NCBI GenBank assembly: GCA_902778995.1
Contig: CACYZW010000008.1
Span: 1-45,312 of the forward strand
Reading direction: 5' to 3'
Length of the DNA: 45,312 bases
DNA from: an uncultured Eubacteriales bacterium
GTDB lineage: Bacteria > Bacillota > Clostridia > Christensenellales > Aristaeellaceae
Of this stretch, positions 17,870-43,351 are shown piece after piece. A program made the translations under genes and the position numbers. Every line of letters starts with the position of its first letter. Position 1 is the stretch's first letter. The notes under the pieces were generated by a model, which was not told the DNA's origin, made no database searches, and saw nothing but the letters and a program-made list of their open reading frames with translations.

Positions 17870-17898
17870 TTGACAAATAACAGGAAATGTGCCACAAT
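17870..17898 (+). promoter_or_regulatory. Promoter of the large peptidoglycan-binding protein
   Basis: A perfect -35 TTGACA (17870-17875) is followed after 17 bases by CACAAT (17893-17898), a 4 of 6 match to the -10 consensus, in an AT-rich stretch. The gene starts at 17991 with AGGAGG at 17977-17982, leaving a 5' leader of about 85 bases. Confidence 0.6.
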
Positions 17899-17990
17899 AT
17901 ATCATAGTTGCCAAACGATTCCGGACGATCTTCGGAACCGACCACGCGCCAAAAACGTCAAACAGACATTATTATCAGGAGGACAGCACA

Positions 17991-20900
17991 ATGAAAAGGA
18001 TCGCAATGCTCATACTGCTGCTTGCGCTGTGCCTGGTCGTCGCGCCCCTTGCGGTGGCGGAAGGCGGGCCTGTCGCCCGCAGCGATGCCTTTGCCGCCTA
18101 TACCGACGGCGAAGGGCACCTGTTTCTGCCCGGCAAACCGGAGGCCATCAACAGCAAGACGGCGGACAGCGTCGTGGCCATCGACGCCTACCGGGTGCTC
18201 TATTTGAGCCCGGACGATTTCACGGACACCCAGGATCTTTACGTGATCGACCTGCAGACCCTTGAGGAATCCCTCGTCGCCACCGACGTAAAGGCCGCCT
18301 GCCTCGCGAGCGAGGATACGGCCTATTACGTCACCGGCGCGAATCGCAGGCAGTTGATGCGGGTGAATCTGCGCACCCTGGGCGCCGAGATCGCCTATAC
18401 CGCCGTTGAGCCCATCGATCGCCTGTACATCTCGGCGGAGGGACTGATCTTCCAGCTGGTGGATCAGGCCGGAACGATGCTGTACGTCGAACAGACAGGT
18501 CAATTCGAGATATACAACGCCGACATGCCCCGCAGCGGCGTTACCGGCGACAGGTATGAAATCTACCTGACCGATGGCTCGCAGCTGTACATAAAGAGCT
18601 GCTTCAATTACAATACCACGCTGATCGACACCGATGTGACCGCCTACGCCCGGCTGAACGAAGCGGTCTACTACCTGACCCGCAAGGGCAGCGTGCTTCG
18701 CCTGAAGGCCTTTGATCTCAACACCCTGAAATCCAGGGTGGTGCTGACTCCCGCGGTGAAGATGAAGGATCAGCTGACGGCCACAGGGAAGGCCCTGTTC
18801 ATGCTGGCAGCCGACAACACCGTTTGCCGCGTCGACACCGTCAAGGGCACCTTGGCGGCGTACAGGCGCTATCCCGACCTCTCCACCTACAAACTGCCTG
18901 CGGAATACGTTGCTGACGGCCTTCGCATCGAGGGCATGAGCGGTCAGCTGAACGTCTACGCACAGCTGAAGGATAAGGTTACCAAGCCCACCTTCTCGTT
19001 TATCGAATTTGAATCAGAAGCCGACGTCGCGGCACCCATCCTGCGGCTGATCGAGGCGAACAAGCTCAGCGGCGAACAGACCGCGTGGGATCTGTTGAAA
19101 CCCGTGCCCCAGTATGCTCCCCTGTCCAGGGGCAGCCGTGGCGACGCGGTGAGCGCCATCCAGCAGCCGCTGAAGGACCTGGGCTATTACGATTATTATG
19201 TGGACGGCATATTTGGCCCCCGCACCCAGGCTGCCGTGCAGCTTTTGCAGTTCGACCTGGATCGCCCCGTGACAGGCGTGGCGGACGCAGAACTGCAAAG
19301 GGTCATACTCTCCGGCAGCCTCGGCGCCTACGACCCCTACCTCCAGCTGACCCGCGGCAACCGCGGCATGCGCGTGAGGCGGATGCAGGAGCGCCTGCGC
19401 GAGCTGGGCTATCTGGCCGACGCCGCAGACGGCATCTTTGGCCCTCGGACGATGAAGGCCGTGCAGCTGTTCCAGGAGGAAAACGGCCTGCCGGAGAGCA
19501 ACGCCGCCACTCGGCAGACGCTGAAGCTTCTCTATTCCGACCGGGCCGAGCAGTGCTCCAGCTACATCGACCTCTATCCGGGCGACACGGGCTACCGCGT
19601 GCGGGAGCTGAACAATCGCCTGAAGGCGCTGTATTATCTGGAATGCAGCCCGGGCAGCACTTACACCTGTGAAACCACCTCTGCGGTGCGCGTATTCCAG
19701 CGCACGGCCGGCCTGCGCGAAACCGGCAAGGCCGATGCGGCCATGCAGCGCCTGCTGTTCTCCCGCAACGCGCCCGAAGCCCCCGGCTACATCGTATTGC
19801 GCCGCGGCGACGACAACGAGCGCGTCGAGCGCCTGCAGCGCCGCCTCAGGGATCTGAATTACTTCAACGGCCCCGTGGACGGTTATTTCGGCAGGGAAAC
19901 CAAGGAAGCCGTGGCCCTGTTCCAGAAGAAGGTGGGCCTCAGGCCCACGGGCGTCGCCACCGTGCACACCCAGAAGCTGCTGTTCTCCCCCGATGCGCCG
20001 GAATACGTGAAGCCCACGATCATCGGTATACCGGATATCTATGTTGAAAACTATGACTTTGAGGACGACGACGTCTACTTCATCTCCGAGGAAAGCGCGC
20101 CTGACGGTTATGTCATCTTCGATTGGGACGTCGAGGGCGATGTGGAATACTACAACGTCCGCGTCAGCGATTCCGACGGCAATGTCTATATCGACAAGGA
20201 CACGATGATGACCAGCACCGGCGTATCCATCTTTACGCTGGATTGCGACCTGGAGTACACGCTGCGCGTCAAGGCATACCCCGAGGACGGAGACAGGAAG
20301 CACGTCACCCAGGCGGAGGTCACCTTTGTCAGGATGGAAAGGACGGTGACGACGGTTCTTGATCCCGACAATGCGATCGGCATTCCCGTGATCACGCTGG
20401 ATACCGTCGCTCGCTGTGAAAACGACGTAAGCTATCTGCTGCCCGGTATCGTCACCTTTGAATGGTTTGCCGAGGGCAAGGTGGGCAGCTACAACGTGCG
20501 CATCGAGGACGAGAGCGGCAATGTGGTCGTCGACGAAAACATGACCGGCCTCGAGGCCAGCATACGCTCCGACGCCATGAATGCGGGCGAGGTTTACACC
20601 ATATCCGTAAACGCGATCCCCGAAAACGGCGACATGAAGGAGGCCCGCTCCAATTCCTTACAGTTCTCGCTGCCGGATGTGGAGCTGCCCGAGCCCGAAC
20701 TCACCCCCGAACCGACCCCCGAGCCGACTCCCGAGCCGACCCCCGAACCGACTCCCGAACCTGTCGGAGGGGCTGAGGAAGGCACAGACGGCGAACCGGA
20801 CGCGCCCGAGGAAACCCTTGAGCCCATCGCCACGTTCGAGCCCGACCCCTCTGTGGAAGCACAGGACGTGGACGACGGAGACGAGGACAAGGAACAGGGC

Positions 20901-22784
20901 GACGACGACCATGCGCAGCCGGAGGACGAGGTCCTGCCGGAGGAAGCGATTGAAGAACCGTCTTATGAAACCGATTCTGAGGTACCCGCCGACACGCCCG
21001 AAGAAAATCCCGAGGGCGAAGTCCCCGCTGAGACGCCCGCCGAAGCGCCTGAGGATGTTGCGCCGGCAGTGGAGCCCGAGGACGTTACACCCGCCGAAGT
21101 GCCCGAGGATGTTGCGCCGGCAGTGGAGCCCGAGGGCGTTACGCCCGCCGAAGCGCCTGAGGATGTTGCACCGGCAGTGGAGCCCGAGGACGTAACACCC
21201 GCCGAAGGGCCTGAGGATGTTGCACCGGTAGTGGAGCCCGAAGGCGATCTACCCGACGAAGTACCTGGGGACGTTGCGCCCGCCGAGGAGCCTGCGGATG
21301 ATATCCCCGTCGAAGCGCCTGAGGACATTGCACCCGACGAGGAGCCTGCGGATGATATCCCCGTCGAAGTACCTGAGGACGTTACACCTGACGAGGCGCC
21401 CGAGGACGAGGACGACAATGTTCCCGCCGGGGAGGTGCCGGAGGGCGATGACGCGGAGGCGCAGGCGGCCAACCGTGTTACCGAGCCGGTGATCACACTG
21501 GACTATGTGCAGGAGGAGGCCAACGGCATCGCCTATGTCTCCGGCGACATGCTGACCATCAACTGGCAGTCAGAGGGCGACGTTGCGGAATATCGCGTTG
21601 AACTGCTCGATTCCGGAAACAACGTGCTCGATTCCAGAACGGTCACTACGCCCTCCCTGTCCGCTTATACCAGCGCACTGGATCCGACCGAAGTCTACAC
21701 CCTGAACATCACGGCCATTCCCGCAGGCGGAACAGAGGCTGAAGGCGCTGCCGCTTCGGTGTCGTTCGCACTGTACGTCGGCGCATCCGAAGACGCGCAA
21801 CCGTCCGAAGAGGAATATCGCGAGCCAGAGGAAGAACAACAGGCGTCTGAGGACGATTACCAGGAACCGGAGGAAGAAGACCAGGCATCCGAGGACGATT
21901 ACCAGGAGCCGGAGGAAGAGGACCAGGCGTCCGAGGAAGATTATCAGGAACCGGAGGAAGAAGACCAGGCGTCCGAGGACGATTATCAGGAGCCGGAGGA
22001 AGAAGGCCAGGCGTCTGAGGACGATTATCAGGAACCGGAGGAAGAGGACCAGGCATCCGAGGACGATTACCAGGAACCGGAGGAAGAAGAACAAGCCTCC
22101 GACGATGAATCCCAGGGGCAGCAGGAAAGCAATCAGGAGCCCGAACAGGATTACCAGGAACCTGAGGACGACTGGCAGAATCCCGAGATGGAATATTATG
22201 GGCTTGGAGATGAATACCAGGAGCCCGGAGAGGGCGACCAGGAGCAGGAAGAAGACCAGGCGTCCGAGGAAGATTACCAGGAGCCGGAGGACAACTGGCA
22301 GGAGCCTGAGATGGAATTCCAGGGACTCGACGAGGAATACCAGGAGCCCGAGGCAGATTTGCCGGCTATCGAGGACGATTGGGAAGCGCCCGAGGTGGAA
22401 TACGAGGCACCAGAGGACGATGAGCAGGTGCTCGATGAGTGGCCGGATTCCGAAGGCGAATATGAAGATTTCGAAGGCGAGTATCAGGATGCCGAGGACG
22501 AAGATCTGGATTCCAGCGGGGTTGAGAGCATCACACTTGACGAGGCTGGCATTACCGCCCTGCAATCGCGTCTTGTCAGCCTGGGCTGGCTCGCCGCCGA
22601 CAGCTTCACGCCCGGCATGCTGGATGAAGCCACCGTTGCCGCCATCGACGCCTTCCAGAGCTATTGCAACGAAGCCTTTGCTCTGAATCTGCCGGCAATC
22701 GACCTCTTTAACCCGGTCGTCGACGACGACACCTTGAACGCGCTGCAATACGCGGACGAAACCTACGCCAACCCGAACGCATGA
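17991..22784 (+). CDS. Large secreted multi-domain peptidoglycan-binding protein
   Basis: This 1,597-residue protein has a signal peptide (1-24, ending ..APLAVAEGG). Residues about 30-365 look like a beta-propeller of the DUF5050 type. Four PG_binding_1 repeats follow at about 376-665, each with a form like RGNRGMRVRRMQERLRELGY and DG.FG..T..AV..FQ. Two fibronectin-like beta domains lie at about 675-785 and 793-897. Then come a TPEP linker (900-924), an acidic repeat tract of 18-residue units (about 1017-1137), a third fibronectin-like domain (1164-1263), a tract of 14-residue SEDDYQEPEEEDQ units (about 1270-1370), and a fifth, degenerate peptidoglycan-binding domain (1514-1594). AGGAGG is 8 bases before the start. 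A wall-associated role is inferred; no catalytic domain is visible. Confidence 0.85.
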   Translation: MKRIAMLILLLALCLVVAPLAVAEGGPVARSDAFAAYTDGEGHLFLPGKPEAINSKTADSVVAIDAYRVLYLSPDDFTDTQDLYVIDLQTLEESLVATDVKAACLASEDTAYYVTGANRRQLMRVNLRTLGAEIAYTAVEPIDRLYISAEGLIFQLVDQAGTMLYVEQTGQFEIYNADMPRSGVTGDRYEIYLTDGSQLYIKSCFNYNTTLIDTDVTAYARLNEAVYYLTRKGSVLRLKAFDLNTLKSRVVLTPAVKMKDQLTATGKALFMLAADNTVCRVDTVKGTLAAYRRYPDLSTYKLPAEYVADGLRIEGMSGQLNVYAQLKDKVTKPTFSFIEFESEADVAAPILRLIEANKLSGEQTAWDLLKPVPQYAPLSRGSRGDAVSAIQQPLKDLGYYDYYVDGIFGPRTQAAVQLLQFDLDRPVTGVADAELQRVILSGSLGAYDPYLQLTRGNRGMRVRRMQERLRELGYLADAADGIFGPRTMKAVQLFQEENGLPESNAATRQTLKLLYSDRAEQCSSYIDLYPGDTGYRVRELNNRLKALYYLECSPGSTYTCETTSAVRVFQRTAGLRETGKADAAMQRLLFSRNAPEAPGYIVLRRGDDNERVERLQRRLRDLNYFNGPVDGYFGRETKEAVALFQKKVGLRPTGVATVHTQKLLFSPDAPEYVKPTIIGIPDIYVENYDFEDDDVYFISEESAPDGYVIFDWDVEGDVEYYNVRVSDSDGNVYIDKDTMMTSTGVSIFTLDCDLEYTLRVKAYPEDGDRKHVTQAEVTFVRMERTVTTVLDPDNAIGIPVITLDTVARCENDVSYLLPGIVTFEWFAEGKVGSYNVRIEDESGNVVVDENMTGLEASIRSDAMNAGEVYTISVNAIPENGDMKEARSNSLQFSLPDVELPEPELTPEPTPEPTPEPTPEPTPEPVGGAEEGTDGEPDAPEETLEPIATFEPDPSVEAQDVDDGDEDKEQGDDDHAQPEDEVLPEEAIEEPSYETDSEVPADTPEENPEGEVPAETPAEAPEDVAPAVEPEDVTPAEVPEDVAPAVEPEGVTPAEAPEDVAPAVEPEDVTPAEGPEDVAPVVEPEGDLPDEVPGDVAPAEEPADDIPVEAPEDIAPDEEPADDIPVEVPEDVTPDEAPEDEDDNVPAGEVPEGDDAEAQAANRVTEPVITLDYVQEEANGIAYVSGDMLTINWQSEGDVAEYRVELLDSGNNVLDSRTVTTPSLSAYTSALDPTEVYTLNITAIPAGGTEAEGAAASVSFALYVGASEDAQPSEEEYREPEEEQQASEDDYQEPEEEDQASEDDYQEPEEEDQASEEDYQEPEEEDQASEDDYQEPEEEGQASEDDYQEPEEEDQASEDDYQEPEEEEQASDDESQGQQESNQEPEQDYQEPEDDWQNPEMEYYGLGDEYQEPGEGDQEQEEDQASEEDYQEPEDNWQEPEMEFQGLDEEYQEPEADLPAIEDDWEAPEVEYEAPEDDEQVLDEWPDSEGEYEDFEGEYQDAEDEDLDSSGVESITLDEAGITALQSRLVSLGWLAADSFTPGMLDEATVAAIDAFQSYCNEAFALNLPAIDLFNPVVDDDTLNALQYADETYANPNA
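21042..21404 (+). repeat. 54-base coding minisatellite
   Basis: About six to seven tandem units of 54 bases encode variants of EAPEDVAPAVEPEDVTPA. The first four are nearly identical; later units drift to EPADDIPVE forms. The tract lies between beta domains of the large secreted protein and stays in frame. Confidence 0.85.
21802..22095 (+). repeat. 42-base coding minisatellite
   Basis: Seven tandem 42-base units encode variants of ASEDDYQEPEEEDQ, strongly negatively charged. Related but degenerate units continue to about 22440 (..DYQEPEDDWQNPEMEYYGL..). Unit length is a multiple of three, so copy-number changes would keep the frame. Confidence 0.88.
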
Positions 22785-28879: not shown

Positions 28880-31555
28880 CTATACATCAGAACGGGTCTG
28901 CGTCACATAGATCAGTCCGTAGGTACCCGGCCCGCAGTTTGCTGAAATCGCGGAGGATGCGTTCTGGACGACCACCCTTTCAAACCGGGCGTGCCTGCCC
29001 ACTTCCCCGAGGATCGCCTCCCGTTCACGGGCGTTCAGCCCTACATGGGTCAAAAAGAGCATGCCGCCGTCGGCAGGCGGATACCGCTTGAAGGTCGAAG
29101 CGATGTACTTGCGCCGCACGCGCTCCGGCCGGCCGAGGAACAGCCGCACGGTGCGCAGCCTGCCCCGCAGCATCTGGAATTGGGGATGCAGCAGCAGCGC
29201 GTCGGAAATCAGCTTCACGCGCCGGCTCGTTCGGCCCGCGCGCACCAGATAGTCGGCGGTGTCGATCACAAAACTGCTGACGATTCTTTCCCTGTAGCCG
29301 GTCATCGCAGACAGTATTTCATCGACCGATTTGCCCTCCAGCGCAAGCCGCGCGGCATACATCGCCAGCATGCCCGTGCCGCTGGACAGGTGAGCGCTGT
29401 CCACCACCGTGACGTTGTTGAACGACTCCGCTGCGGCTCGGGCGACGGGATGGGCCTGGCTGATGGCGCTGGCTGCGGTGATGTGAATGACGTTGTTGGC
29501 CCTTGTCAAAATCTCCGCGAAGAACGCCTCCATCTCCGCCCGACTCGGCGGGATCGAACGCACGAGCTGGCCCCGCTCCATGTAGCCCACGATGCCCCTG
29601 GCGTCCACCTCCACGCCGTCCTTGAAGAGCGCGTCCCCCGTCTGAACGTAGAAGGGTATGACGGCAATGCCCAGCGCACGGACGATGTCCTCCGGCAGGT
29701 CGCAGCTGCTGTCCGTCGTGACCGCGATCTGCCTGCGCACGCGGGCCTCGGCCATTCCGGGCAGGGGCTGTTCCGAAACCCCGCTCTGCGCCTGCGTCGC
29801 CTGGACCAATTCCACCGGAAGCAGCCGCATTAGCTCCCGTTCCAGCTGTTCCCCGCGAATGGGCTTGGCAAGGTAGCCGTCGAAGCCCTCCCGCCGGTAC
29901 ATCAGCTCCATCTCGCTGCCGGCATTCGCCGTCAGCGCGACGATCCGGCTGTCCTGGCAAAGGCCACCCGCCTGGGCGCGAATCGCCCGCAGGCATTCGA
30001 TGCCGTCCATGCCGGGCATGACGTGATCCATCAGTATCACGTCGTAGCGCGTTTGCAGCGTCTTTTCCAGCGCCGCCGCGCCACTTGGGGCCGTGTCCAC
30101 CTGTACCCGCGTGTCCCGCAGCAGCTTTTCCACCACCAGCAGGTTTGCCGGGGTATCATCCACAGCCAACACCCGTGCGGCGGGCGCGACGAAGGCCGGG
30201 ACATACCGCGCCTCACGGCCGGCCGTGCGCCCATACCGCATGTCCATGTCGCCCACCGGCGATTCGTCTGCGATGGACTGCGGAAGCTGAACGATGACCG
30301 TGGTGCCCTTGGTGTAGATGCTGTTGACGCTGATCGTTCCGTCCATCAGGTCCAGCAGCTTCTTGACGATGGACAGCCCCAGCCCCGTGCCCTCGATGTG
30401 CCGGTTGTCATGCTCATCCACGCGCTTGAAGGCGGTGAACAGATTCGGGATGGCCTCCTTGCGGATGCCGATGCCGGTGTCCGTCACCGTATAGGTCACG
30501 CGAATCGCGCCCTCTCCGGTCCGCTCCCCCTGAACCGACAGGGTAACGCCGCCCGCCTCGGTGTACTTGACGGCGTTGGTCAGCAGGTTGAGGAGCACCT
30601 GCTTGATGCGCATCTCGTCGCCGTACAAGCCGACGGGCAGCGCGGGATCGACCTCGATTCTGAAATACAGCCCCTTCTCCCGGGCCTTGACCCAGATCAT
30701 GTTTACGATGTCCGACAGCATGTCGCCCGTTCGATAGCTGGCGGTGACGATTTCAAGCTGGCCCGACTCCAGCTTCGACATTTCAAGAATGTCGTTGACC
30801 GTCTGGAGCAGCATGCGTCCGGCGGTCTCGATGTGCCGCGCATCCTCCAGCACCTCGTCCGACACGTTTTCCCGCAATATCATCTCGTTAAGGCCGATAA
30901 TCGTGTTCACAGGCGTGCGAATCTCGTGGCTCATGCTGGAAAAGAAGCTGTTCTGCGCCCGGTTCAGCTCCTCGATCTCCCGGCTCTGTCGCTGCAGCAT
31001 GCTGCGCTCCTGAGCCGAGACGTGCAGCTGGAACAGGAACATGCTGCCGGTCATGTTGGCGGTAATGATCAGCGAAGCCAGCGAATCCACGTAGGCCGCC
31101 TGTTTCGTATACTGCACCACCAGCTCCGGGTGGATATAGGTGACGACGTAGCAGACTGCGGTGACCACGATGTCCGAGACCAGCAGGAAGTTGCGCAGCC
31201 TGCCCCGGATCGTCAGGGTGACGAATATCAGGGCCATGATGCACCAGTTCGGCGCGCCGGCCTCGATGCCCCCGTTGTAGAAGAAGGCGAAGGGCAGCAT
31301 CAAAAACACCAGCACGATGCCGCTCCCGCCCGCGCCCTGCTGAATCTTTCCGGTGCGCAGCGTAAAGATCATCGTGGGGATGAACAGCAGATCGCAGATC
31401 AGGAAGAAGACCAGCCGCGTCGGATGGAAGTCTACCACAGCGGCCACCGCCAGCCACAGGAACAGGTTGACGATGCTGATGGCGGAGAGCAGCCGGTAGC
31501 GACGCTCGTAGATGTCCCGGCTGGGATCGTTCAGAAGGGCAAGCCACCGCTTCAT
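28880..31555 (-). CDS. Hybrid histidine kinase fused to a DegV lipid-binding domain
   Basis: This 891-residue protein has about six membrane helices in the first 180 residues. A HisKA domain follows with H210 in MSHEIRTPVN, then HATPase_c (N327 in LLTNAVKY, D359 in DTGIGI, GTGLGL at 389-394). A receiver has D510 in ILMDHVMPGMDG and K564. Residues about 608-886 form a complete DegV/EDD domain (TTDSSCDLPEDI.., ..VVDSAHLSSGTGML.., ..VIDTADYLVRAGR..). DegV proteins (FakB) bind fatty acids. The pocket signatures are altered: RSIPPS stands where FakB has TSxPS, ITAASAISQA where FakB has the SS..SGT loop, and ANCGPG where AHxGPG is usual. The ATG overlaps the upstream kinase stop by 4 bases. A lipid-sensing or lipid-controlled output is inferred. 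Confidence 0.92.
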   Translation of the reverse strand: MKRWLALLNDPSRDIYERRYRLLSAISIVNLFLWLAVAAVVDFHPTRLVFFLICDLLFIPTMIFTLRTGKIQQGAGGSGIVLVFLMLPFAFFYNGGIEAGAPNWCIMALIFVTLTIRGRLRNFLLVSDIVVTAVCYVVTYIHPELVVQYTKQAAYVDSLASLIITANMTGSMFLFQLHVSAQERSMLQRQSREIEELNRAQNSFFSSMSHEIRTPVNTIIGLNEMILRENVSDEVLEDARHIETAGRMLLQTVNDILEMSKLESGQLEIVTASYRTGDMLSDIVNMIWVKAREKGLYFRIEVDPALPVGLYGDEMRIKQVLLNLLTNAVKYTEAGGVTLSVQGERTGEGAIRVTYTVTDTGIGIRKEAIPNLFTAFKRVDEHDNRHIEGTGLGLSIVKKLLDLMDGTISVNSIYTKGTTVIVQLPQSIADESPVGDMDMRYGRTAGREARYVPAFVAPAARVLAVDDTPANLLVVEKLLRDTRVQVDTAPSGAAALEKTLQTRYDVILMDHVMPGMDGIECLRAIRAQAGGLCQDSRIVALTANAGSEMELMYRREGFDGYLAKPIRGEQLERELMRLLPVELVQATQAQSGVSEQPLPGMAEARVRRQIAVTTDSSCDLPEDIVRALGIAVIPFYVQTGDALFKDGVEVDARGIVGYMERGQLVRSIPPSRAEMEAFFAEILTRANNVIHITAASAISQAHPVARAAAESFNNVTVVDSAHLSSGTGMLAMYAARLALEGKSVDEILSAMTGYRERIVSSFVIDTADYLVRAGRTSRRVKLISDALLLHPQFQMLRGRLRTVRLFLGRPERVRRKYIASTFKRYPPADGGMLFLTHVGLNAREREAILGEVGRHARFERVVVQNASSAISANCGPGTYGLIYVTQTRSDV

Positions 31556-34269
31556 GCGTCCGCCCCCCCTTCCATCCGGGCGAGGGCCTCTCGAACCGTG
31601 TCCCCCGCCCCCTTCAGGTCGAAGTCGTCGATCTGTCCGCGAAGCCGGCTGACAAGCCCGGTGAGCGCATCGGCGCCGAGGTCGCAGCTCTCCAGCTTCT
31701 TCAGCGCGTCGTCCGCGCCGTCGGCGTCGAAATCATCCAGCGCCGCCGCAAGCGTCCGAAGCATGTCCCTGACCGTCCGGGAATCGACAGGCTCAGCGCC
31801 GGATCTTGTCTCTGTTTCTTCCGCTGCGGGCATCAGTTCCCGAAGGGTCCGTATCAGCGACGTACAGGCATCCATGAAATCCCGGTGCTGCGCCTTGATG
31901 TCGGAGATATGTTCCGCCTTCGCCGCCGCTTCGAGGAAGGCGGCCCGCCGCGACACGTCCTGCGCCCCGATCATCTTCGCGGTGCTCTTCACCGTGTGAA
32001 CGCCGATGGCATAATGCGTCCAATCCCCATTTGCGAAGCATGCTTCAAGCTCGGAACACCGGGTCTCGCCCGACGCCGCAAACCGGGCCAGGACCTCCTC
32101 GTACAGCGAAACGCGGTTGCCGCAGTAGCCCAGGCCGGCGTCCGTATCCACGCCTGCGGCCTGCAACGCCTCGAATAGCGTCCGCGACGGGGCTTCCGCC
32201 TGCGCGCCGTCCTCCGATCTGACGGCAATCGCCCTGGGCAGCACCGTGCGAAGGGTCCTGTCCAGCTCCTGCACGTCGATGGGTTTGGCGACAAAGCCGT
32301 CGAAGCCCTCCTGCCGAAACATCGCCCTCGCGCCGCTGACCGTGTTCGCAGTCAGGGCGACGATGTACAGGTCGCGCCCCTTATCCCGCTCCAGGGCGCG
32401 CAGCCGTCGCGCGGCTTCCACGCCATCCATGCCCGGCATCATGTGATCCATGAACACCAGATCAAAGGGGTGCGCCCGATACATTTCTATCGCCTCCGCG
32501 CCGCTGAGCGCCGTGTCGATTTCCATGCCGTAGCCGCTCAGCAGGCCCTCCGCCACCATCAGGTTCGTGGGTTCGTCGTCGACGATCAGCGTTCTCACGC
32601 CGGGGAACGCGACCTCCTGCGGGGTCGTCTGCGCCTGTGTGCCGGATGCGTTCAGCAGATTCACGGCATGGAAGGAGCACACCGGTTTGCGGAGGACGTG
32701 CGCCCGGCTGTGCTGCGGCAACGCCCAATCCTCTCCGGCAACCACGACCACGGCGCCCCGGACGGCGAAGCGCTCCACAGCCTCCCGCTGCGCGCCGTAG
32801 CTGTCCGCATCCAGCATGAGATGGGTCAGCGTTCCCTGGTCAAGGATCGCCGCCAACGCCTGCGGCCCGTCGACCAGGATCGCCTCCACGCCCAGCCGCG
32901 CCGCCGTATGCATGAACATGTTCCGGTAGGCCTCGCGGGCCATGGGATGGGCGATTATGTGGAAATTGAAGCAACCCGCCACCTGAACGGCCTGAGGTTG
33001 ACCGACAGCCATGCAGGGCGCGGCGTCGGATACCTTCTGGGGTATGCTGACGAGGATGTCGGTTCCCCCGTTCTCCCCCCGTTCGATCCTGACAAAGCCG
33101 CCCATCAGCCGGACGAAGCCGGTCACGATGGGCAGTCCCAGCCCCAGACCTCCCGTCGAGCGGGCGCGGCCTGAATTGCCCTTGTAGAAGCGCTCCGACA
33201 GGTGCTCCAGGGTATCGTCTTCAATGCCGGGGCCCGTGTCCGTCACCCTCAGGCAGAGGTTGACGCCATAGTCGCGCGGCGCCGCATAGAGGTGCGCGAC
33301 GACACAGCCCGTCTCGGTAAATTTTAAACCGTTGGCAAGAAGGTGCCGCATGACGCGCTTGAGCTTCGTCCTGTCGCCCATCAGCACGTTGGGTATCGCC
33401 GGGTCAACGTCCACAATGAGCTCGACATCCTTCTTCATGTCGATTTTCAGCTCGGAAAGCACGTCGTTCACGATGGAGGAGAGCATGTACGGCTCACAGG
33501 CCGCCACCGCCCGGCCCATGTCCACCTCGGTATAATCCAATATATCGTCCAGCTCGTCTGCGATTCTCAGCCCCGCGCTTTGAACAGAGAGGACATCGCT
33601 GCGCAGGTCCTCGGCGAGATCCCGACGCTCGAGAAGCCTTGACAGGCCGACCACCGCGTTGACCGGTGTGCGAATCTCGTGGGACACGTTGGTCAGGAAA
33701 TCGTTGATTTTCTCTCGTTCCTCGTCCAGACGGGCCATCTGGTCGCTGTGGCCGATCTGCATCGTCTCCCAGAGGCGCATGAAGCACAGGCAGACAAAGG
33801 CCGCGAAGGCGAGCAGCGCCATGTGCGACGTGGTTATAAACACGTTTTCCGCGCCGAAATCAAAGTGTCCGCCCGCGATATCCCCCGCCAGGCGAAACAG
33901 CGTTGTGATGTAGCCCACGGCGACGCCGCACCAAAACAGCCTGCGGCGCATCGTCAGCGCATAGAGCATCACCGCCACGATGGCCACGGGCGCGATGCGA
34001 AACAAATTCGCGCTGTGTACGCCGTAGTAGAACGTCTCCAGCATCAGCATGGCCGAAAACAGCGTCGTCATGGTTTTGCCGGGGAGGTTGTTCAGGATCA
34101 TCAGCGTCCACGCCGCCACGATGCCCGCCCCCAGCACCGGAAGCATCCACCCCTCCCAGCCCAGCAACAGGTTTTCAACGATCAGCACGACGGTCAGCAC
34201 CGTCAGTGCGATCAGCAGCGCCAGGCGCGCGGTATGGTCGATGTTTCCGATCCGCTCGTCGCCCCTCAC
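31552..34269 (-). CDS. Hybrid histidine kinase with receiver and HPt domains
   Basis: This 905-residue protein has about six membrane helices (12-165). HisKA has H197 in VSHEIRTPVN, HATPase_c has DTGPGI at 344-349 and GLGLGL at 374-379. A receiver-like segment at about 432-535 keeps LDADS and a RKP lysine but is strongly diverged. A canonical receiver has D608 in VFMDHMMPGMDG, and a C-terminal HPt domain has H758 in GVHTVKSTAK. All parts for an intramolecular His-Asp-His relay are present, so phosphate could go on to the receiver of the HD-GYP protein encoded just upstream. The start is a GTG with GGGAGG/AGGGAA upstream, 6 bases after the HD-GYP stop. Calling the first segment a receiver is an inference. 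Confidence 0.9.
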   Translation of the reverse strand: MRGDERIGNIDHTARLALLIALTVLTVVLIVENLLLGWEGWMLPVLGAGIVAAWTLMILNNLPGKTMTTLFSAMLMLETFYYGVHSANLFRIAPVAIVAVMLYALTMRRRLFWCGVAVGYITTLFRLAGDIAGGHFDFGAENVFITTSHMALLAFAAFVCLCFMRLWETMQIGHSDQMARLDEEREKINDFLTNVSHEIRTPVNAVVGLSRLLERRDLAEDLRSDVLSVQSAGLRIADELDDILDYTEVDMGRAVAACEPYMLSSIVNDVLSELKIDMKKDVELIVDVDPAIPNVLMGDRTKLKRVMRHLLANGLKFTETGCVVAHLYAAPRDYGVNLCLRVTDTGPGIEDDTLEHLSERFYKGNSGRARSTGGLGLGLPIVTGFVRLMGGFVRIERGENGGTDILVSIPQKVSDAAPCMAVGQPQAVQVAGCFNFHIIAHPMAREAYRNMFMHTAARLGVEAILVDGPQALAAILDQGTLTHLMLDADSYGAQREAVERFAVRGAVVVVAGEDWALPQHSRAHVLRKPVCSFHAVNLLNASGTQAQTTPQEVAFPGVRTLIVDDEPTNLMVAEGLLSGYGMEIDTALSGAEAIEMYRAHPFDLVFMDHMMPGMDGVEAARRLRALERDKGRDLYIVALTANTVSGARAMFRQEGFDGFVAKPIDVQELDRTLRTVLPRAIAVRSEDGAQAEAPSRTLFEALQAAGVDTDAGLGYCGNRVSLYEEVLARFAASGETRCSELEACFANGDWTHYAIGVHTVKSTAKMIGAQDVSRRAAFLEAAAKAEHISDIKAQHRDFMDACTSLIRTLRELMPAAEETETRSGAEPVDSRTVRDMLRTLAAALDDFDADGADDALKKLESCDLGADALTGLVSRLRGQIDDFDLKGAGDTVREALARMEGGADA

Positions 34270-34275
34270 GGTTCC

Positions 34276-35283
34276 CTACACCTCCCGCATCCGGTAGTCC
34301 CAGTCCTCGTCGATCATTTGAAGCATGATGGCCGCGAAACGCGGGTCAAACTGGCTGCCGGAGCAGCGGGCGATTTCCTCCCGCACCCGCGCCTGGGGCA
34401 ACACGGCCCTATAGCTTCGGTTGCTGGTCATCGCGTCGTAGGTGTCCGCCACGGCGATGATGCGCGCCACTTCCGGGATGTCCTCTCCGGCCAGCCCGTC
34501 GGGATAGCCCCTGCCGTCGTAGCGCTCGTGATGCCACCGCGCGCCGGTAACCAGTTCGGGATAGTCTGCGATATGGTCGAGGATCTGCGAGCCCACCACA
34601 GGATGGGTCTTGATCGCCGCGTATTCATCGTCCGTCAGGCGGCCGGGCTTGTTGATGATGGCGTCCGGCACGCCGATTTTTCCCACGTCGTGCAGCAGGC
34701 CCATCATGTAGATCTCCTCCTGCTTTTCCGGGGCATAGCCGGCGCGCCGGGCGATTTCCCGGGCGTATTCCGCCACCCGGGAGGAATGGCCGTGGGTATA
34801 CCTGTCCTTGGCGTCGATGGCGGTGGCCATGGCGCGCACGATCTGCAAATACGCCCGGGAGAGCTTCTCCGTCTGCACCTGAATTTCATGGGCCATGTCG
34901 CTTTGCAGCCGGTTCAGGGCAATCGTGTTTCGCGCCCGCAGCAGCAGCACATCCGGGGCGAAGGGCTTGCGTATAAAGTCCGTCGCGCCCGCATGCAGGC
35001 CCTTCGTCTCCGTTTCCACGTCGTCATCGGCGGTCAGGAAGATCACCGGCACGTTGCGGTACGCCGGTTTTTCCTTCAGCCGCCGGATGACCTCAAAGCC
35101 GTTGACACCCGGCATGTGGATGTCCAGCAGCACCAGGTCCGGAATCCTCGAGCCGTCCAGATAGGCCAGGGCGTCCTCTCCGGATTTGAAGTAGCTGCCC
35201 CGAATCCCGGCTTCCCTGAATACGCCGCTGGCCATTTTCAGATTGGCCGCGTCGTCGTCCACCACTACAATCCAGTCTTCCAC
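34276..35283 (-). CDS. Response regulator with HD-GYP phosphodiesterase (RpfG-like)
   Basis: This 335-residue protein has a receiver (1-120, D54 in LVLLDIHMPG, K106) and an HD-GYP domain (about 145-330). Visible metal and active-site residues are H164 in YTHGHSSRV, H198-D199 with K202 in LLHDVGKIG, H227 in THP, H251-H252, and GYP in DGRGYPDGL at 259-261. HD-GYP domains hydrolyse cyclic di-GMP to GMP or pGpG. Phosphorylation of D54 by the neighbouring kinases is a reasonable inference. The start is a GTG with AGGAGG 5 bases upstream, and a promoter lies at 35329-35358. First gene of an operon of five. Confidence 0.94.
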   Translation of the reverse strand: MEDWIVVVDDDAANLKMASGVFREAGIRGSYFKSGEDALAYLDGSRIPDLVLLDIHMPGVNGFEVIRRLKEKPAYRNVPVIFLTADDDVETETKGLHAGATDFIRKPFAPDVLLLRARNTIALNRLQSDMAHEIQVQTEKLSRAYLQIVRAMATAIDAKDRYTHGHSSRVAEYAREIARRAGYAPEKQEEIYMMGLLHDVGKIGVPDAIINKPGRLTDDEYAAIKTHPVVGSQILDHIADYPELVTGARWHHERYDGRGYPDGLAGEDIPEVARIIAVADTYDAMTSNRSYRAVLPQARVREEIARCSGSQFDPRFAAIMLQMIDEDWDYRMREV

Positions 35284-35518: not shown

Positions 35519-35601
35519 ATAACCTCTGGCACCGTGTCGGAATGACACCGGGCATACGCCATCTGAGCAGACGATACTTTTCACATGAAGGAGAATTCTC
35601 C

Positions 35602-38496
35602 ATGGAGAAGCTTGAACCGTTTATCGCCGCCCATTTTGATGACGCCCTGGCAAAGGGCCATATCCAGCCGTATTATCAGCCCGTCATTCGCACGATTTCC
35701 ACGAAGCTGTGCAGCTTTGAAGCTCTTGCGCGGTGGGTCGATCCCGAGCGCGGTATCATTTCACCCAGCCAGTTTATTCCCATTCTGGAAAAAAACAACA
35801 TCATCCATCGCCTGGACGCCTGCATCATCCGCCAGGTTTGCGCCACAATTCGGCGTACCGTCGATTCCGGGGCGGTTCCCGTCCCCGTGTCCGTCAACCT
35901 TTCGCGCCTCGATTTCGCCCTCTGCGACATCTTTGCGGTGGTGGACGAAATCGTCAGCCAATACCAGATTCCCCACGACTTTCTGTACATAGAAATCACC
36001 GAAAGCGTGATGGCGGAGCAGGAGGACAGGATGCGCGACATCGTGGCCCGCTTCCATGCCGCCGGCTACCAGGTTTGGATGGACGATTTCGGCAGCGCCT
36101 ATTCCTCGCTGAACCTGTTGAAGGACTTCGAATTCGACGAGCTGAAGATGGATATGCGCTTTTTGAGCTCCTTCAACCAGCGCTCCCGCCGCATCATGAA
36201 CGCCGTGATCCAGATGGCCAAGGAGATCGACATCCATACCCTGGCCGAGGGCGTGGAAACCGAGGAACAGCTGCGCTATCTGCGCAACATCGGCTGCGAA
36301 AAGGTGCAGGGCTATTACTTCGGCAGGCCCATGCCCTTCGACGAAGCCCTGGCCCACGTGCGCAAGCTGGGCATCAGCGTGGAAATCCCCCAGGATCGAA
36401 GGTACTATGACGAAATCGGAAAGATCAATTTCCTGAGCGCCGTGCCCTTTATGACCAAGGCGGAGCGCGACCAGCTGCGCAACGCCCGTCAGCTGAACAG
36501 CATCCCCCTGGCCGTCGCCGAGGGGCGGCGGGACTCGTTCAGCATCCTCTTTTACAACACTGCCTTCGAGCAGACCGCCGAGAGTACCGGCATGGCCTCC
36601 CATATATTCACCCAGGAAATGCTTCGCGTTCCCCAGCCCTATTCGCTGCTCCCCAAGCGGCTTTTGAACCTGATGGAATCCACGCGCTCCGGCGAGGAGG
36701 GCCGCATGTATTTCATCTCCAACGACGAATACTATGAAATCCAGGCCAAGTGCATCGCCCAGACGAAGGACGCCTACAGCGTGCTCTTTCGCATGAGCAA
36801 TCTCTCCAAGGCTTCTCAATCCGTCAAAACGGATCGCCTCGACGACAGCATTCGGCAAATCTATACGCTTTTCGAGCGCATCACGTTGATCGACACGCTC
36901 ACCGACACCATCACCCCGATGTACATCGCCACGCGGGAGGATCTGCTCTCCGGCAGGCACAACGTGAAAATGCTCGCGCAGGAATACGCCGAGCGCCTGA
37001 TCTTCCCGGAGGACCGGGAAGCCTATATGCGGCTGATGGACTTCGACGGCATCGAGGACAAGCTGCATGAAGCCGGACGCAGCCACATCTCCATATATCT
37101 GCGCACCCGCGTGGCGCACGGGCGCTACGAATGGAAGCAATACATACTGATGCGCATGCAGCCGAACACCTATGTGCTGCTGATGCGCAACGTCCATTCC
37201 GATCTCGTCTCGTTTTTGGACAAGCACCACCTCAGCCATCAGTCGCTGGAGGGCGAGGCCATCGATTCGCCGGAGGTGCTCTGGCGAAACCTGATACAGT
37301 CCGACATCACACGCCTGTTCTGGAAGGACCGGGCGCGCCGCTTCCTCGGCGCGAGCGTCGGCTTTTTGACCTACTACGGCTTTGGGTCGGCGGAGGAGAT
37401 CATCGGGAAGACGGACGAGGATCTGGGCTGGCACGTTCACCCGGACGCCTACATGAGCGACGAGCTTCGGGTGATCCGCGAAGGCATCACCACCCACAAC
37501 ATACCGGGCCGATGCATCAGCAACGGTGAAAACCGCGACATCATCGCCAGCAAAGCGCCGCTGTACGACCGAAACGGCGATGTTCAGGGCCTGATCGGCT
37601 GCTTCATCGACCGGGATATGCTCAACATGAACGACATCCGGGGCAAGGAGACGAAGCGCCGGGACATGCTCACCGGCCTGCTCAACTCCCGGGGCATCGC
37701 CGAGGAAGCACAAACCTTCCGGGACGAATATGACCTGCGCAACGTCGATTTTGTCCGGGTCCACGTCGCCATCGACGATTTTACCTCCCTCAATCAGCAA
37801 TACGGCTTTGACTTCGGCGACAAGGTCATCGCCGCCCTGGGACGGACGCTGAAAAAGGAATTTGGCCTGACCTGCGCCGTAGGCCGTTATACCGGGCATG
37901 AATTCGTGATTTTGCATCAGATCCAGGCGTTCGCGGACGCAGGCCGTCTGCGCGCCAGGATCAAGGAAATCGCCGGGGATATCCGTGAAATCGACGGCGT
38001 CGCGCTGACGCTGTACATGTCTGCGGGCTACTGCGTGTATTCCGAATGCGAGGATCTCGAAGAACAAAAGCAGAAGGCGGAGATTCGCCTTCTGGCTGAC
38101 CACGACGATCACTCGACCGTTGAAAACCTCAGAAGCCGCGCCTCCGAAATATTCCACCTGTACGACGACCTTCCCATCTCCTATTGCGTTTGCCGGGTCG
38201 TGGCCGACGAATCGCACAGGGTCCGCGATGGAATACTGTTCTACGCCAACCACGCCTTTGAGCGTCAGATCGGCGTGAAGGCCGCGCAGATGCTGGGTCG
38301 GCGGTTTTCCGAATTGTTTGCCCCGCCCAGCGAGGCCTGGTGCGAAATCGCCCGCCGCGCCGCCCTCGAGGGGGAGAGCGTGACGCAACAGGTACCGTTC
38401 GGCCCCAGTGGAAAGAAGCTCTTCGTCACCGCAAGCCCCGTCATCCACCCCGGATACTGCTGCTTCACATGTGTGGATGTGGAGGAAATGAAATAA
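35602..38496 (+). CDS. EAL phosphodiesterase with PAS domains and degenerate GGDEF
   Basis: This 964-residue cytoplasmic protein starts with an EAL domain (about 1-260). Catalytic residues look intact: E40 in FEALAR, N99 in NLSR, E131 in EITES, D161-D162 in DDFGSAYSSL, K182, E216/E219 in EGVET, and Q236 in VQGYYFGRP. A regulatory region holds a PAS-like domain (about 580-675, ..TYYGFGSAEEIIGKTDEDLG..). Then comes a GGDEF-fold domain (about 690-850) in which the signature is TGHEF, so it should not synthesise cyclic di-GMP. A second PAS-like domain (about 865-964) ends the protein. The start at 35602 is chosen because AAGGAG is 8 bases upstream. Net activity is probably cyclic-di-GMP breakdown under PAS control. 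Confidence 0.92.
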   Translation: MEKLEPFIAAHFDDALAKGHIQPYYQPVIRTISTKLCSFEALARWVDPERGIISPSQFIPILEKNNIIHRLDACIIRQVCATIRRTVDSGAVPVPVSVNLSRLDFALCDIFAVVDEIVSQYQIPHDFLYIEITESVMAEQEDRMRDIVARFHAAGYQVWMDDFGSAYSSLNLLKDFEFDELKMDMRFLSSFNQRSRRIMNAVIQMAKEIDIHTLAEGVETEEQLRYLRNIGCEKVQGYYFGRPMPFDEALAHVRKLGISVEIPQDRRYYDEIGKINFLSAVPFMTKAERDQLRNARQLNSIPLAVAEGRRDSFSILFYNTAFEQTAESTGMASHIFTQEMLRVPQPYSLLPKRLLNLMESTRSGEEGRMYFISNDEYYEIQAKCIAQTKDAYSVLFRMSNLSKASQSVKTDRLDDSIRQIYTLFERITLIDTLTDTITPMYIATREDLLSGRHNVKMLAQEYAERLIFPEDREAYMRLMDFDGIEDKLHEAGRSHISIYLRTRVAHGRYEWKQYILMRMQPNTYVLLMRNVHSDLVSFLDKHHLSHQSLEGEAIDSPEVLWRNLIQSDITRLFWKDRARRFLGASVGFLTYYGFGSAEEIIGKTDEDLGWHVHPDAYMSDELRVIREGITTHNIPGRCISNGENRDIIASKAPLYDRNGDVQGLIGCFIDRDMLNMNDIRGKETKRRDMLTGLLNSRGIAEEAQTFRDEYDLRNVDFVRVHVAIDDFTSLNQQYGFDFGDKVIAALGRTLKKEFGLTCAVGRYTGHEFVILHQIQAFADAGRLRARIKEIAGDIREIDGVALTLYMSAGYCVYSECEDLEEQKQKAEIRLLADHDDHSTVENLRSRASEIFHLYDDLPISYCVCRVVADESHRVRDGILFYANHAFERQIGVKAAQMLGRRFSELFAPPSEAWCEIARRAALEGESVTQQVPFGPSGKKLFVTASPVIHPGYCCFTCVDVEEMK

Positions 38497-39648: not shown

Positions 39649-40020
39649 TCAGCCCTGCGCCTCGTATTCCCGGATGCAGCGGGTGGTATCCTCATAGCGC
39701 TGTATGACGGCCTGCAGCTTTTCCCTGACCTGTTCATCCGACAGCTTGCGGGCGTTGCCTGGGCGGAATTCCTCTGTTATCTCGTCGGCGGCGTTGGCCA
39801 ACGCGACGAGGCCCAGGTTGGAGCAGACGCCCTTCATGGCGTGCGCGCTTTCAAACAACTTCGTCCCGTCCATCGTTTCGCCGGCCTGTGCCAGCATCTC
39901 GCCGACGTTGCTGGCGGTCAGCTTGCGCACGTATTTATCGATCAGCTTGTCCTTCTTCATCACGCGGACGGCCTGATCGTAATCGCCGCCTATTTTGGCA
40001 TACAGTTCCTGAATCGTCAT
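39649..40020 (-). CDS. Free HPt phosphotransfer protein
   Basis: This 123-residue helical protein has the HPt signature ..LFESAHAMKGVCSNLGL.. with phospho-acceptor H60 and the usual K63-G64. HPt proteins carry phosphate between the receiver of a hybrid kinase and a downstream receiver. Its ATG overlaps the stop of the receiver-EAL gene by 4 bases, and the hybrid kinase encoded upstream lacks its own HPt. These three gene products can thus form a full His-Asp-His-Asp relay; that pairing is inferred from the operon. Confidence 0.92.
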   Translation of the reverse strand: MTIQELYAKIGGDYDQAVRVMKKDKLIDKYVRKLTASNVGEMLAQAGETMDGTKLFESAHAMKGVCSNLGLVALANAADEITEEFRPGNARKLSDEQVREKLQAVIQRYEDTTRCIREYEAQG

Positions 40021-41720
40021 GCCTCATTCTCCCTCTCAATTTCTTTTTCTCGGATGATTAAACGCTCGAATTCCCCGGGCGGCAACGGTCGCGAGAAGTA
40101 GAAGCCCTGCACCAGTTCGCAACCGGCTTCCTTCAGCATCTCAAGCTGCTGGCGGGTCTCCACGCCTTCCGCCACGACCGGCACCTTGAGATACTTTGCA
40201 ATGTCCAGCACCACCTCGACCAGTCGAAAATCCTTTTCGCTGTGTCCGATGTTGCGCACGAACGTCATGTCCATTTTCAGTACGTCAATGGGCATGCAGG
40301 AAAGCATGTTCAGCGACGAATAGCCCGAGCCAAAGTCATCCATTTCTATCTCGAAGCCGCAGTTGCGCAGGCGGTTGATCAGCTCGATCATCTGCTCCGC
40401 GTTATCCGTATAGGCCGACTCGGTGACCTCCAGCTTCAACAGCTTGTGATCCAGCCCGTATTGCCGAACCAGCGCGTCCAGCCGCTCCTCCAGCGACGGG
40501 TCGAACACGTCCACGCGGGACAGGTTCACGGACACCGGCAGCGTCACCCCGATTTTGTCCCGCCATTCTGCGATCTGCCTGGCCGCTTCGTTCCAGACGT
40601 AATTGTCGACGGCGCTGATCTGGCCGTTGCCCTCGAAGAGCGGTATGAACGTCCCGGGGGATACCATGCCCAGCTCCGGATGCTGCCAGCGAATCAGCGC
40701 CTCGGCGCTGGACAGCTTGGGCGGATCGCACTGGATGTCATACTTGGGCTGGTAGTACACCGTCAGTTCCTTTTCATCCACAGCGCGCCGCAGATCGTTT
40801 AGCAGGCGCTGGTTCAGGATCTCCCGAAGGCGCATCTCCTCGTCATAAACCATCAGATGGGTCTTGTAGTTGCCGCGTATCATGCTGCAAGCAGCGCAGG
40901 CGCGGTCAAACAACAGCTCCGGCTCCACATCCTCCCGCCAGGGCGCGACGCCCATGCGCAGGCGGATGTTGGCGGTCTTGGAAAGGGCGCTGACCCTTTT
41001 CTGCAACCGATCCAGCAGCGCCTGATAGTTGTCCTGGTGCAGGCAATAGATATCGAACCGATCTGCCTCGAACCGGCTGGTGATGCCCTCGGTCTCGCTG
41101 AGGAAGGCTCGAATCTCATCGCCGATGATCCGCAGCACCTTGTCGCCGAATTCGCGCCCGTTCAATGCGTTGACGGAATGGAACTGCTCGATGTTGACGA
41201 CCACGGCGTCCATGTGCCAGTTCGGATGATAGCGATGGATCCGATTGGCATATTCGAAGAAGAAGTTTCGGCTGTAGAGCATCGTCAGCTGATCGTGCTC
41301 CGCGGCGGAAATCAGCTGGCGGCCTTCGCTCAGCTCTATGATGCGCCCAACGCGGGCCAATATGACCTCGTGCATGTCAAAGGGCTTGGTGATAAAGTCC
41401 GCCGCGCCCATTTGCAGCGCCTTGAGCTCGGCGCTTCGCTCCGCTGTCAGCACGATGATGGGAATGCTGTTCAGGAATTCATCGTTGCGAACGTGTTCGA
41501 GCACCTGAAAGCCGTCCATTACGGGCATGATGAGGTCCAACAACACGACGGAGAGCCTGTTGCGGTGCTGCTGGATCAAGTCCAGCGCTTCCCGGCCATT
41601 GGAAGCGTAGATGATTTCATAATAATCCTCCAGGATCATCCCCAGCACATCGCGGTTGATCTCCTGGTCGTCTACAATCAAAACCAGCTGAGGCTTTTTC
41701 AGTTGTTTGGATTTGATCAT
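40017..41720 (-). CDS. Response regulator with degenerate GGDEF and EAL domains
   Basis: This 567-residue protein has a receiver (about 12-130, D62 in VLLDLIMPVMDG, K in ITKPF), a GGDEF-fold domain (about 145-295) with EADRF at the signature so it is probably inactive, and an EAL domain (about 305-560). Catalytic residues look intact: SAEALIRW, NLSR, LEVTES, DDFGSGYSSL, LKMDM, EGVET and LVQGFYFSRP. It should hydrolyse cyclic di-GMP in response to phosphorylation. The start at 41720 has GGAGG 8 bases upstream; an in-frame TTG at 41735 contains the ribosome site. It sits between the hybrid kinase and HPt genes. Confidence 0.93.
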   Translation of the reverse strand: MIKSKQLKKPQLVLIVDDQEINRDVLGMILEDYYEIIYASNGREALDLIQQHRNRLSVVLLDLIMPVMDGFQVLEHVRNDEFLNSIPIIVLTAERSAELKALQMGAADFITKPFDMHEVILARVGRIIELSEGRQLISAAEHDQLTMLYSRNFFFEYANRIHRYHPNWHMDAVVVNIEQFHSVNALNGREFGDKVLRIIGDEIRAFLSETEGITSRFEADRFDIYCLHQDNYQALLDRLQKRVSALSKTANIRLRMGVAPWREDVEPELLFDRACAACSMIRGNYKTHLMVYDEEMRLREILNQRLLNDLRRAVDEKELTVYYQPKYDIQCDPPKLSSAEALIRWQHPELGMVSPGTFIPLFEGNGQISAVDNYVWNEAARQIAEWRDKIGVTLPVSVNLSRVDVFDPSLEERLDALVRQYGLDHKLLKLEVTESAYTDNAEQMIELINRLRNCGFEIEMDDFGSGYSSLNMLSCMPIDVLKMDMTFVRNIGHSEKDFRLVEVVLDIAKYLKVPVVAEGVETRQQLEMLKEAGCELVQGFYFSRPLPPGEFERLIIREKEIERENEA

Positions 41721-41775
41721 AAACCGTTCCTCCAATCAGGATACCCCATATGCAACGTCTTTCGCCCCATATGCG

Positions 41776-43257: not shown

Positions 43258-43351
43258 GCGCTTCACCTCCCCAGGGTGCGTCTTTATCGGTCGCGTGAAA
43301 GCGCGCCTCGCTGTCGCAATACTACGCGGTATGCATAATGGCTGTTCTTAC

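Follow-up and report, generated by a model that had tools for sequence, protein, structure and literature searches.

The kinase-receiver-DegV gene and its operon

We analysed a 45,312-nucleotide stretch of DNA from an uncultured Eubacteriales bacterium (contig CACYZW010000008.1; hereafter the window) and focus on a gene at 28880-31555 on its minus strand, a single uninterrupted frame with an ATG start that encodes an 891-residue fusion of a histidine kinase, a receiver and a DegV domain. All four recognised domains (HisKA, HATPase_c, receiver and DegV) exceed their Pfam cut-offs; the DegV domain scores 155.6 bits against a cut-off of 27 (E 2.3e-45), aligns over positions 2-279 of the 280-position profile and is also assigned above cut-off in NCBIfam. 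The open reading frame and the domain search bear out the continuous frame with a full-length DegV domain that a preliminary description of this DNA had proposed. The parts of the gene are as follows.

28880..31555, minus strand: histidine kinase-receiver-DegV fusion, 891 residues (open reading frame, Pfam)
30986..31555, minus strand: N-terminal membrane region, residues 1-190, without a Pfam match at E 0.001 (Pfam, hydropathy)
30761..30955, minus strand: HisKA, residues 201-265, E 1.3e-14, phospho-acceptor H210 (Pfam, motif)
30278..30622, minus strand: HATPase_c, residues 312-426, E 2.5e-28, with NAVKYT, DTGIGI and GTGLGLSI boxes (Pfam, motif)
29837..30172, minus strand: receiver (Response_reg), residues 462-573, E 4.4e-22, D510 (Pfam, motif)
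29729..29836, minus strand: receiver-DegV linker, residues 574-609 (Pfam boundaries)
28901..29728, minus strand: DegV domain, residues 610-885; FakB2 His266 replaced by N873 and Thr61 by S667, with S699 (Ser93) and R775 (Arg170) kept (Pfam, fold, alignment)

By its motifs the hybrid-kinase core is intact: SHEIRTP from residue 209 and ILMDH from residue 507 flank the HATPase boxes and confirm H210 and D510 as previously named. A 19-residue hydropathy scan found seven overlapping stretches above threshold, spanning about residues 20-68, 73-98 and 120-147, or roughly four to five helices; the count of six helices in the preliminary description is therefore not firm. Because a model of the full-length protein reached a mean predicted local distance difference test score (pLDDT) of 46.6, it was not used for contacts between domains.

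Three minus-strand genes run from a receiver-HD-GYP protein through a partner hybrid kinase to the fusion, which closes the row, and in the window the stop of the partner gene overlaps the start of the fusion by 4 nucleotides. The upstream genes are these.

34276..35283, minus strand: receiver-HD-GYP protein, 335 residues, with HDVGK at 198, HHE at 251 and GYP at 259 (Pfam, motif)
31552..34269, minus strand: partner hybrid kinase, 905 residues, with an N-terminal hydrophobic region, HisKA 189-250, HATPase 298-411, receiver 561-672 and a C-terminal region resembling a histidine phosphotransfer (Hpt) domain (open reading frame, Pfam, motif, hydropathy)
31900..32097, minus strand: Hpt-like region of the partner kinase, residues 725-790, with HTVKS from residue 758 (Pfam, motif)

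The first of these genes matches HD_5 at E 7e-34 and the receiver profile at E 3.7e-26, and its product is a predicted phosphodiesterase of cyclic di-GMP (c-di-GMP) and the probable output of a relay. The operon, with its Hpt-like partner kinase and receiver-linked c-di-GMP enzyme, fits the phosphorelay character suggested earlier. The preliminary description had left out the partner kinase, its Hpt-like region, the c-di-GMP enzymes and the versions of the operon that lack DegV.

Recurrence of the fusion and conservation of its operon

We next followed the fusion through related genomes, scoring the first five or six candidates per genome in searches of the window's own family and of order, class and phylum samples, so that these counts are lower bounds. 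With the receiver-DegV part as query, the own family holds the fusion in at least 3 of 308 genomes: the window genome (G000) and two members of its genus, G221 and G222, with 895 and 891 residues. A genome scan located it in RGIG5701 (L004), in whose family (hereafter the G308 family) 68 of 115 genomes carry the fusion, mostly in frames of about 909 residues. Among these 68 are 64 open frames of at least 876 residues; the count includes three frames cut by contig ends (G686, G748 and G753, the last with DegV only) and one gene spread over two frames (G703). Across the order of RGIG5701, 73 of 188 genomes matched at E 1e-45; all matches listed fell within the G308 family, and hence none among the 73 genomes that lie outside it. 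A third Clostridia family (f58), reached through the class sample of 391 genomes, has the fusion in at least five genomes and at least six loci, one genome having two copies; in genome G1051 the two kinase-receiver-DegV copies, L200 and L201, are diverged. In the phylum sample (358 genomes), the long frames among the scored matches at E 1e-64 were those of the window and of two f58 genomes already found, and in the order sample (396 genomes) no frame besides that of the window exceeded 615 residues among the matches listed. The 615-residue frame itself, from G031, was rejected as a further fusion: it joins a canonical DegV to a preceding stretch that does not resemble protein.

The proposed census across Clostridia thus finds the fusion in three families and in 75 other genomes (2 + 68 + 5). 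An assembly join or a chance read-through of neighbouring genes, an idea to which the 239-contig draft state of the window genome might lend itself, is refuted as near to certainty as such evidence allows, because the same architecture recurs in the congeners and in two further families, the 64 long frames included.

Operon context is similarly conserved. Scored by a BLAST match to the C-terminal part of the window's partner kinase, a partner with the Hpt-like region lies directly upstream of the fusion at 66 of 75 loci; of the other nine, three are at a contig edge, one (L164) has the DegV part only, and L120, L121, L200, L203 and L204 are cut, split or divergent. An upstream gene was scored at 69 loci, and at 59 of these its distance from the fusion corresponds to a 4-nucleotide overlap of stop and start. 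The second gene upstream, again over 69 loci, encodes a receiver with a GGDEF motif and/or HD-GYP in 58 (46 with both, 8 with the GGDEF motif only and 4 with HD-GYP); the remainder comprise one cut HD-GYP, two receivers only, five loci where nothing was found and three contig edges. Pfam searches of five such proteins (L101, L122, L123, L124 and L162) recovered receiver and GGDEF in all five and HD in L101. The DegV may also stand apart: in G715 the partner kinase is followed by a solo DegV that belongs to the fusion clade, and in G710 and G729 such solos have a receiver-GGDEF gene on one side and a receiver-HD-GYP gene on the other (receiver-GGDEF and DegV checked by Pfam in G729).

Some loci show rearranged or broken genes. 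At L203 (2172-5606, minus strand) a 1145-residue variant carries an Hpt-like stretch after its DegV, and its 686-residue partner kinase has no Hpt match; judged by this layout, the Hpt-like part seems to have moved to the other partner protein. At L121 (2519-5238, minus strand) and L204 (3035-5813, minus strand) the fusion gene lies in two overlapping frames, from decay or sequencing error.

Four own-family genomes (G242, G237, G228 and G154) carry operons without DegV. Their related kinase stops after the receiver (583, 580, 580 and 590 residues), and of the partner they have no kinase half; its Hpt-like region finds its match in stand-alone frames, which measure 207, 119, 119 and 150 residues in these genomes (207, 119, 150 and 119 in the order of the loci L037, L038, L039 and L040). 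A receiver-HD-GYP gene is adjacent. The joint absence of DegV and of the partner's kinase half would fit a joint role of both. It counts once, because the four kinases form one clade (support 100/100). In the kinase tree this clade groups with the own-family fusions (100/99), a placement that favours loss of DegV in these operons; the converse, that the DegV-less kinases are the ancestral form, is disfavoured by the same grouping, with an approximately unbiased test keeping a single fusion clade at p 0.06.

The remaining c-di-GMP-related genes of the window lie on the upstream side of the operon.

35542..38496, plus strand: divergent EAL-GGDEF-PAS protein, 984 residues (domain search)
40017-41735, minus strand: receiver-GGDEF-EAL protein (domain search)
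41776-43266, minus strand: small histidine kinase-receiver protein (domain search)
43711-45057, minus strand: GGDEF protein (domain search)

With the operon, these four genes make the region rich in c-di-GMP functions, and the EAL-GGDEF-PAS gene also adjoins the operon in G221 (73% identity over 962 residues). Elsewhere in the window, 17889-22784 on the plus strand encodes a 1631-residue protein with repeated peptidoglycan-binding matches and one fibronectin III match.

The DegV domain in relation to FakB and FakA

The fusion DegV is a distinct branch of a familiar fold. In a tree of 43 DegV sequences, 19 fused domains and four solo proteins (L166, L167, L169 and L010) split from 20 canonical ones with support of 100/100; L166, L167 and L169 are solo DegVs in the same type of operon. 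The fused domains alone, with the solos excluded, have support as a clade of just 57/26. This careful tree omits seven rows of a quick 50-row tree (L104, L109, L120, L126, L152, L165 and L212), in which L212, a DegV adjacent to FakA, falls outside the fusion clade. The solo L010 (also L041; genome G216) is 38% identical to the window domain and altered at the positions of FakB2 Ser93, Arg170 and His266; it lies near a contig end beside a gene whose product resembles, by eye, an oligopeptide-type ATP-binding cassette transporter ATPase.

A model of the DegV domain built from a four-sequence alignment has a mean pLDDT of 76.7, with window residues 646-662 below 50. Compared with FakB and DegV structures it gives a Foldseek probability of 1.00 and template modelling (TM) scores of about 0.7-0.84; for the FakB structures 4x9x, 5uto_A and 7w7h_E these are 0.76-0.82, and the matches include FakB1, FakB2 and the FakB chain of the FakA-FakB2 complex. 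As modelled, the fusion DegV domain keeps the FakB fold.

The residues of the carboxylate site tell a different story for most members. We number positions on the FakB2 sequence of 4x9x, where the letters concerned were checked, and take FakB2 Thr61, Ser93, Arg170 and His266 to correspond to FakB1 Thr62, Ser95, Arg173 and His270. According to passages of PMC8892158 and PMC9136124, Thr62, Ser95, Ser171 and His270 form the carboxylate network of FakB1, and Arg173 is conserved in all FakBs, its R173A variant being stable yet inactive in the fatty-acid kinase (Fak) assay. In a non-random set of 53 solo DegVs (L001 and the best-scoring loci of the own-family and order searches; one gene is in it twice, as L025 and L066), Thr61, Ser93, Arg170 and His266 are each kept in 52, and strong solo matches from the phylum sample (L214-L222) have all four canonical residues in nine of nine. 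By comparison, the 69 fusions (a set that omits the partial L143 and L164) have Asn for His266 in every case and Gln for Arg170 in 66, and keep Ser93 in 3 and Thr61 in 10. With the six f58 loci added, Asn occupies position 266 in 74 of 75, and position 170 is Gln in 66 and Arg in 4. Asn266, Gly268 and Gly270 are each invariant at the old carboxylate site in the 69 fusions; this and the retention of the whole fold suggest that the site is still under selection. In the window, Thr61 and His266 are replaced (S667 and N873), and Ser93 and Arg170 are kept (S699 and R775). The three altered FakB loops pointed out in the preliminary description, RSIPPS, ITAASAISQA and ANCGPG, cover Thr61, Ser93 and His266, respectively; they are real and family-wide, with the reservation that Ser93 itself is still Ser in the window.

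FakA was sought in the draft genomes of the G308 family (115 genomes) as a Dak2 match at E 1e-8. It was counted in 43 genomes, from 44 matches: a 239-residue frame (G673) was left out, and frames of 278 (G741) and 268 residues (G743) were counted. At this threshold, FakA was undetected in 35 of the 68 fusion carriers. All 43 FakA genomes carry a DegV match besides the fusion, and among the 72 genomes without FakA just two, G745 and G770, have a DegV outside this type of operon. The fusion is the sole DegV in 33 genomes, none of which has FakA; in G308, for instance, the single DegV is the fusion, and there is no Dak2 candidate. Single absences in drafts are weak evidence; their recurrence over 33 genomes carries more weight. 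In the window genome a FakA-like gene (Dak2, 561-residue frame) occurs together with a separate DegV, L001, that has the canonical residues. In G731:C67, G707:C105 and others of the G308 family, two DegV genes lie beside a Dak2 gene of FakA size; L212 and L213 are among these DegVs.

Interpretation and known systems

Because FakB residues are mostly replaced and FakA is distributed as described, the fusion DegV is very probably not a substrate carrier for FakA, a judgement that is firmer for the family than for the window copy. A regulatory or sensory role of the domain is likely. The reading we favour, and hold to be somewhat better than an even bet, is that two hybrid kinases form a phosphorelay acting on c-di-GMP, the fusion being the second of them and DegV its non-catalytic, probably ligand-binding regulatory domain. 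Each kinase would be phosphorylated on its His and then on the Asp of its own receiver, and phosphate from both would pass to the Hpt-like region of the partner and from there to the receiver linked to the c-di-GMP enzyme. DegV, once a carrier of substrate, would now regulate from the cytosol. Its former acyl tunnel would bind a ligand, for which the likeliest candidates are a lipid whose head group is different and an acyl chain gripped in another way, and the domain would shift the kinase/phosphatase balance of its own kinase or of the partner. That DegV senses a lipid, as suggested earlier, is, like a lipid ligand, an inference from the modelled fold. More broadly, the fusion and its operon hint at a built-in lipid gauge in some gut Clostridia. 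It is possible, though we put it forward tentatively, that a FakB-fold carrier has been captured by a hybrid kinase, mostly without its carrier chemistry, to become a cytosolic gauge by which the state of the membrane lipids would act, via the two kinases and their phosphorelay, on c-di-GMP; it would then be a new class of sensory domain for histidine kinases.

Several observations weigh against this proposal. The partner's Hpt-like match scores 23.0 bits, just below the Pfam cut-off of 24.6, with the HTVKS motif present, and the flow of phosphate is assigned only from motifs and the order of the genes. A less altered domain is found in the window and its two congeners, the exceptions that keep Arg170 and Ser93, and the f58 copy L200 keeps His266 and Arg170, with L201 of the same genome lacking both. 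The FakA-adjacent solos L212 and L213 lack His266 and have Thr61, Ser93 and Arg170, so that loss of His266 by itself gives no verdict on FakB work. Across the G308 family the fusion is more frequent where FakA is present (in 33 of the 43 FakA genomes, compared with 35 of the 72 others; Fisher p 0.003, kinship ignored), a positive association that speaks against complete independence of the two. Finally, the positions conserved specifically in the fusions are scattered over the domain and not limited to the pocket.

That scatter also speaks for a ligand-free structural module, in which the DegV fold would bind nothing and provide a surface for docking or dimerisation that could hold, for instance, the partner kinase or the receiver. 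The loss of binding residues in most members points the same way, as does the absence of the partner's kinase half from the four DegV-less operons, as if it and DegV belong together. We nevertheless consider such a module rather unlikely: that joint absence amounts to a single observation, and a whole 280-residue fold with its invariant Asn266-Gly268-Gly270 loop suggests a site under selection.

Effector domains of response regulators usually lie C-terminal to the receiver, the very place of DegV here, and DegV could accordingly be an output, its lipid uptake or release gated by receiver phosphorylation and its action exerted in lipid metabolism or lipid delivery. This is improbable: FakB residues are mostly gone, FakA is undetected in about half of the carriers, the operon usually supplies a receiver-linked c-di-GMP enzyme able to serve as output, DegV is a separate protein in G715, G710 and G729, and in L203 an Hpt-like stretch follows it. 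Lipid loading for FakA as the output of the relay, the other option of the preliminary description, finds no footing in these data, given the replaced residues in most members and the 35 carriers without a Dak2 match.

More improbable still is that the domain remains a FakB, bringing fatty acids to FakA while tethered to a membrane kinase. A full-length DegV match, the FakB fold, the FakA-like gene of the window genome, the Arg170 and Ser93 of the window copy and the positive association of FakA with the fusion would all agree with it. Set against them are the carriers without Dak2, the finding that none of the 43 FakA genomes has the fusion as its sole DegV, the change of the catalytic Arg to Gln in 66 of 69 fusions, and the separate canonical L001 in the window genome itself.

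The components of the proposed two-kinase relay are known, and their combination is undescribed in the literature searched. Such fusion proteins are probably present in databases under generic names. Among titles and abstract openings, with most subscription journals and preprints outside the search, no DegV-kinase fusion was described and no paper joining DegV and c-di-GMP was found; passages of PMC3146951 and PMC12688256 contain unrelated mentions. Histidine kinases read many other signals, and a FakB-type lipid-binding fold inside one was not found in that literature. If a lipid is bound, gut lipid supply would be linked to c-di-GMP and hence to motility and biofilm. The clade also offers natural FakB relatives mostly without carrier residues, which should help to separate ligand binding from FakA catalysis.

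Compared with FakB of the FakAB system, the fusion shares the DegV family assignment by Pfam and NCBIfam and the fold of FakB1 and FakB2; unlike FakB, it is joined to a hybrid kinase, has mostly replaced carboxylate and catalytic residues and is kept in drafts without detectable FakA. With BarA/TorS/ArcB-type hybrid kinases it has in common the HisKA-HATPase-receiver core and an Hpt-like region in the operon, but here the partner kinase carries that region, and a DegV occupies the C-terminal end; its best NCBIfam kinase matches are BarA and TorS, far below cut-offs, and for no kinase model among the best 25 matches listed did the best-aligned stretch extend beyond residue 624. The first gene of the operon is of the kind of receiver-HD-GYP or receiver-GGDEF c-di-GMP response regulators, although here both hybrid kinases, the DegV fusion among them, would drive it. 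DhaQ offers a precedent for a kinase-substrate subunit turned regulator; we take it to be a paralogue of a Dha-kinase subunit that became a co-activator of a transcription factor and, as a protein of its own, is not fused to a kinase. Its structure 2iu4 ('Dihydroxyacetone kinase operon co-activator Dha-DhaQ') matches the DegV model remotely, at TM 0.48-0.54. The nearest functional precedent found is the SaeRS two-component system, on which fatty-acid kinase acts indirectly through a lower fatty-acid pool and whose kinase, to our knowledge, has no DegV domain. It is a case of a two-component system tuned by fatty acids, which the abstract of PMC5539427 describes as negative regulators of SaeRS signalling in Staphylococcus aureus.

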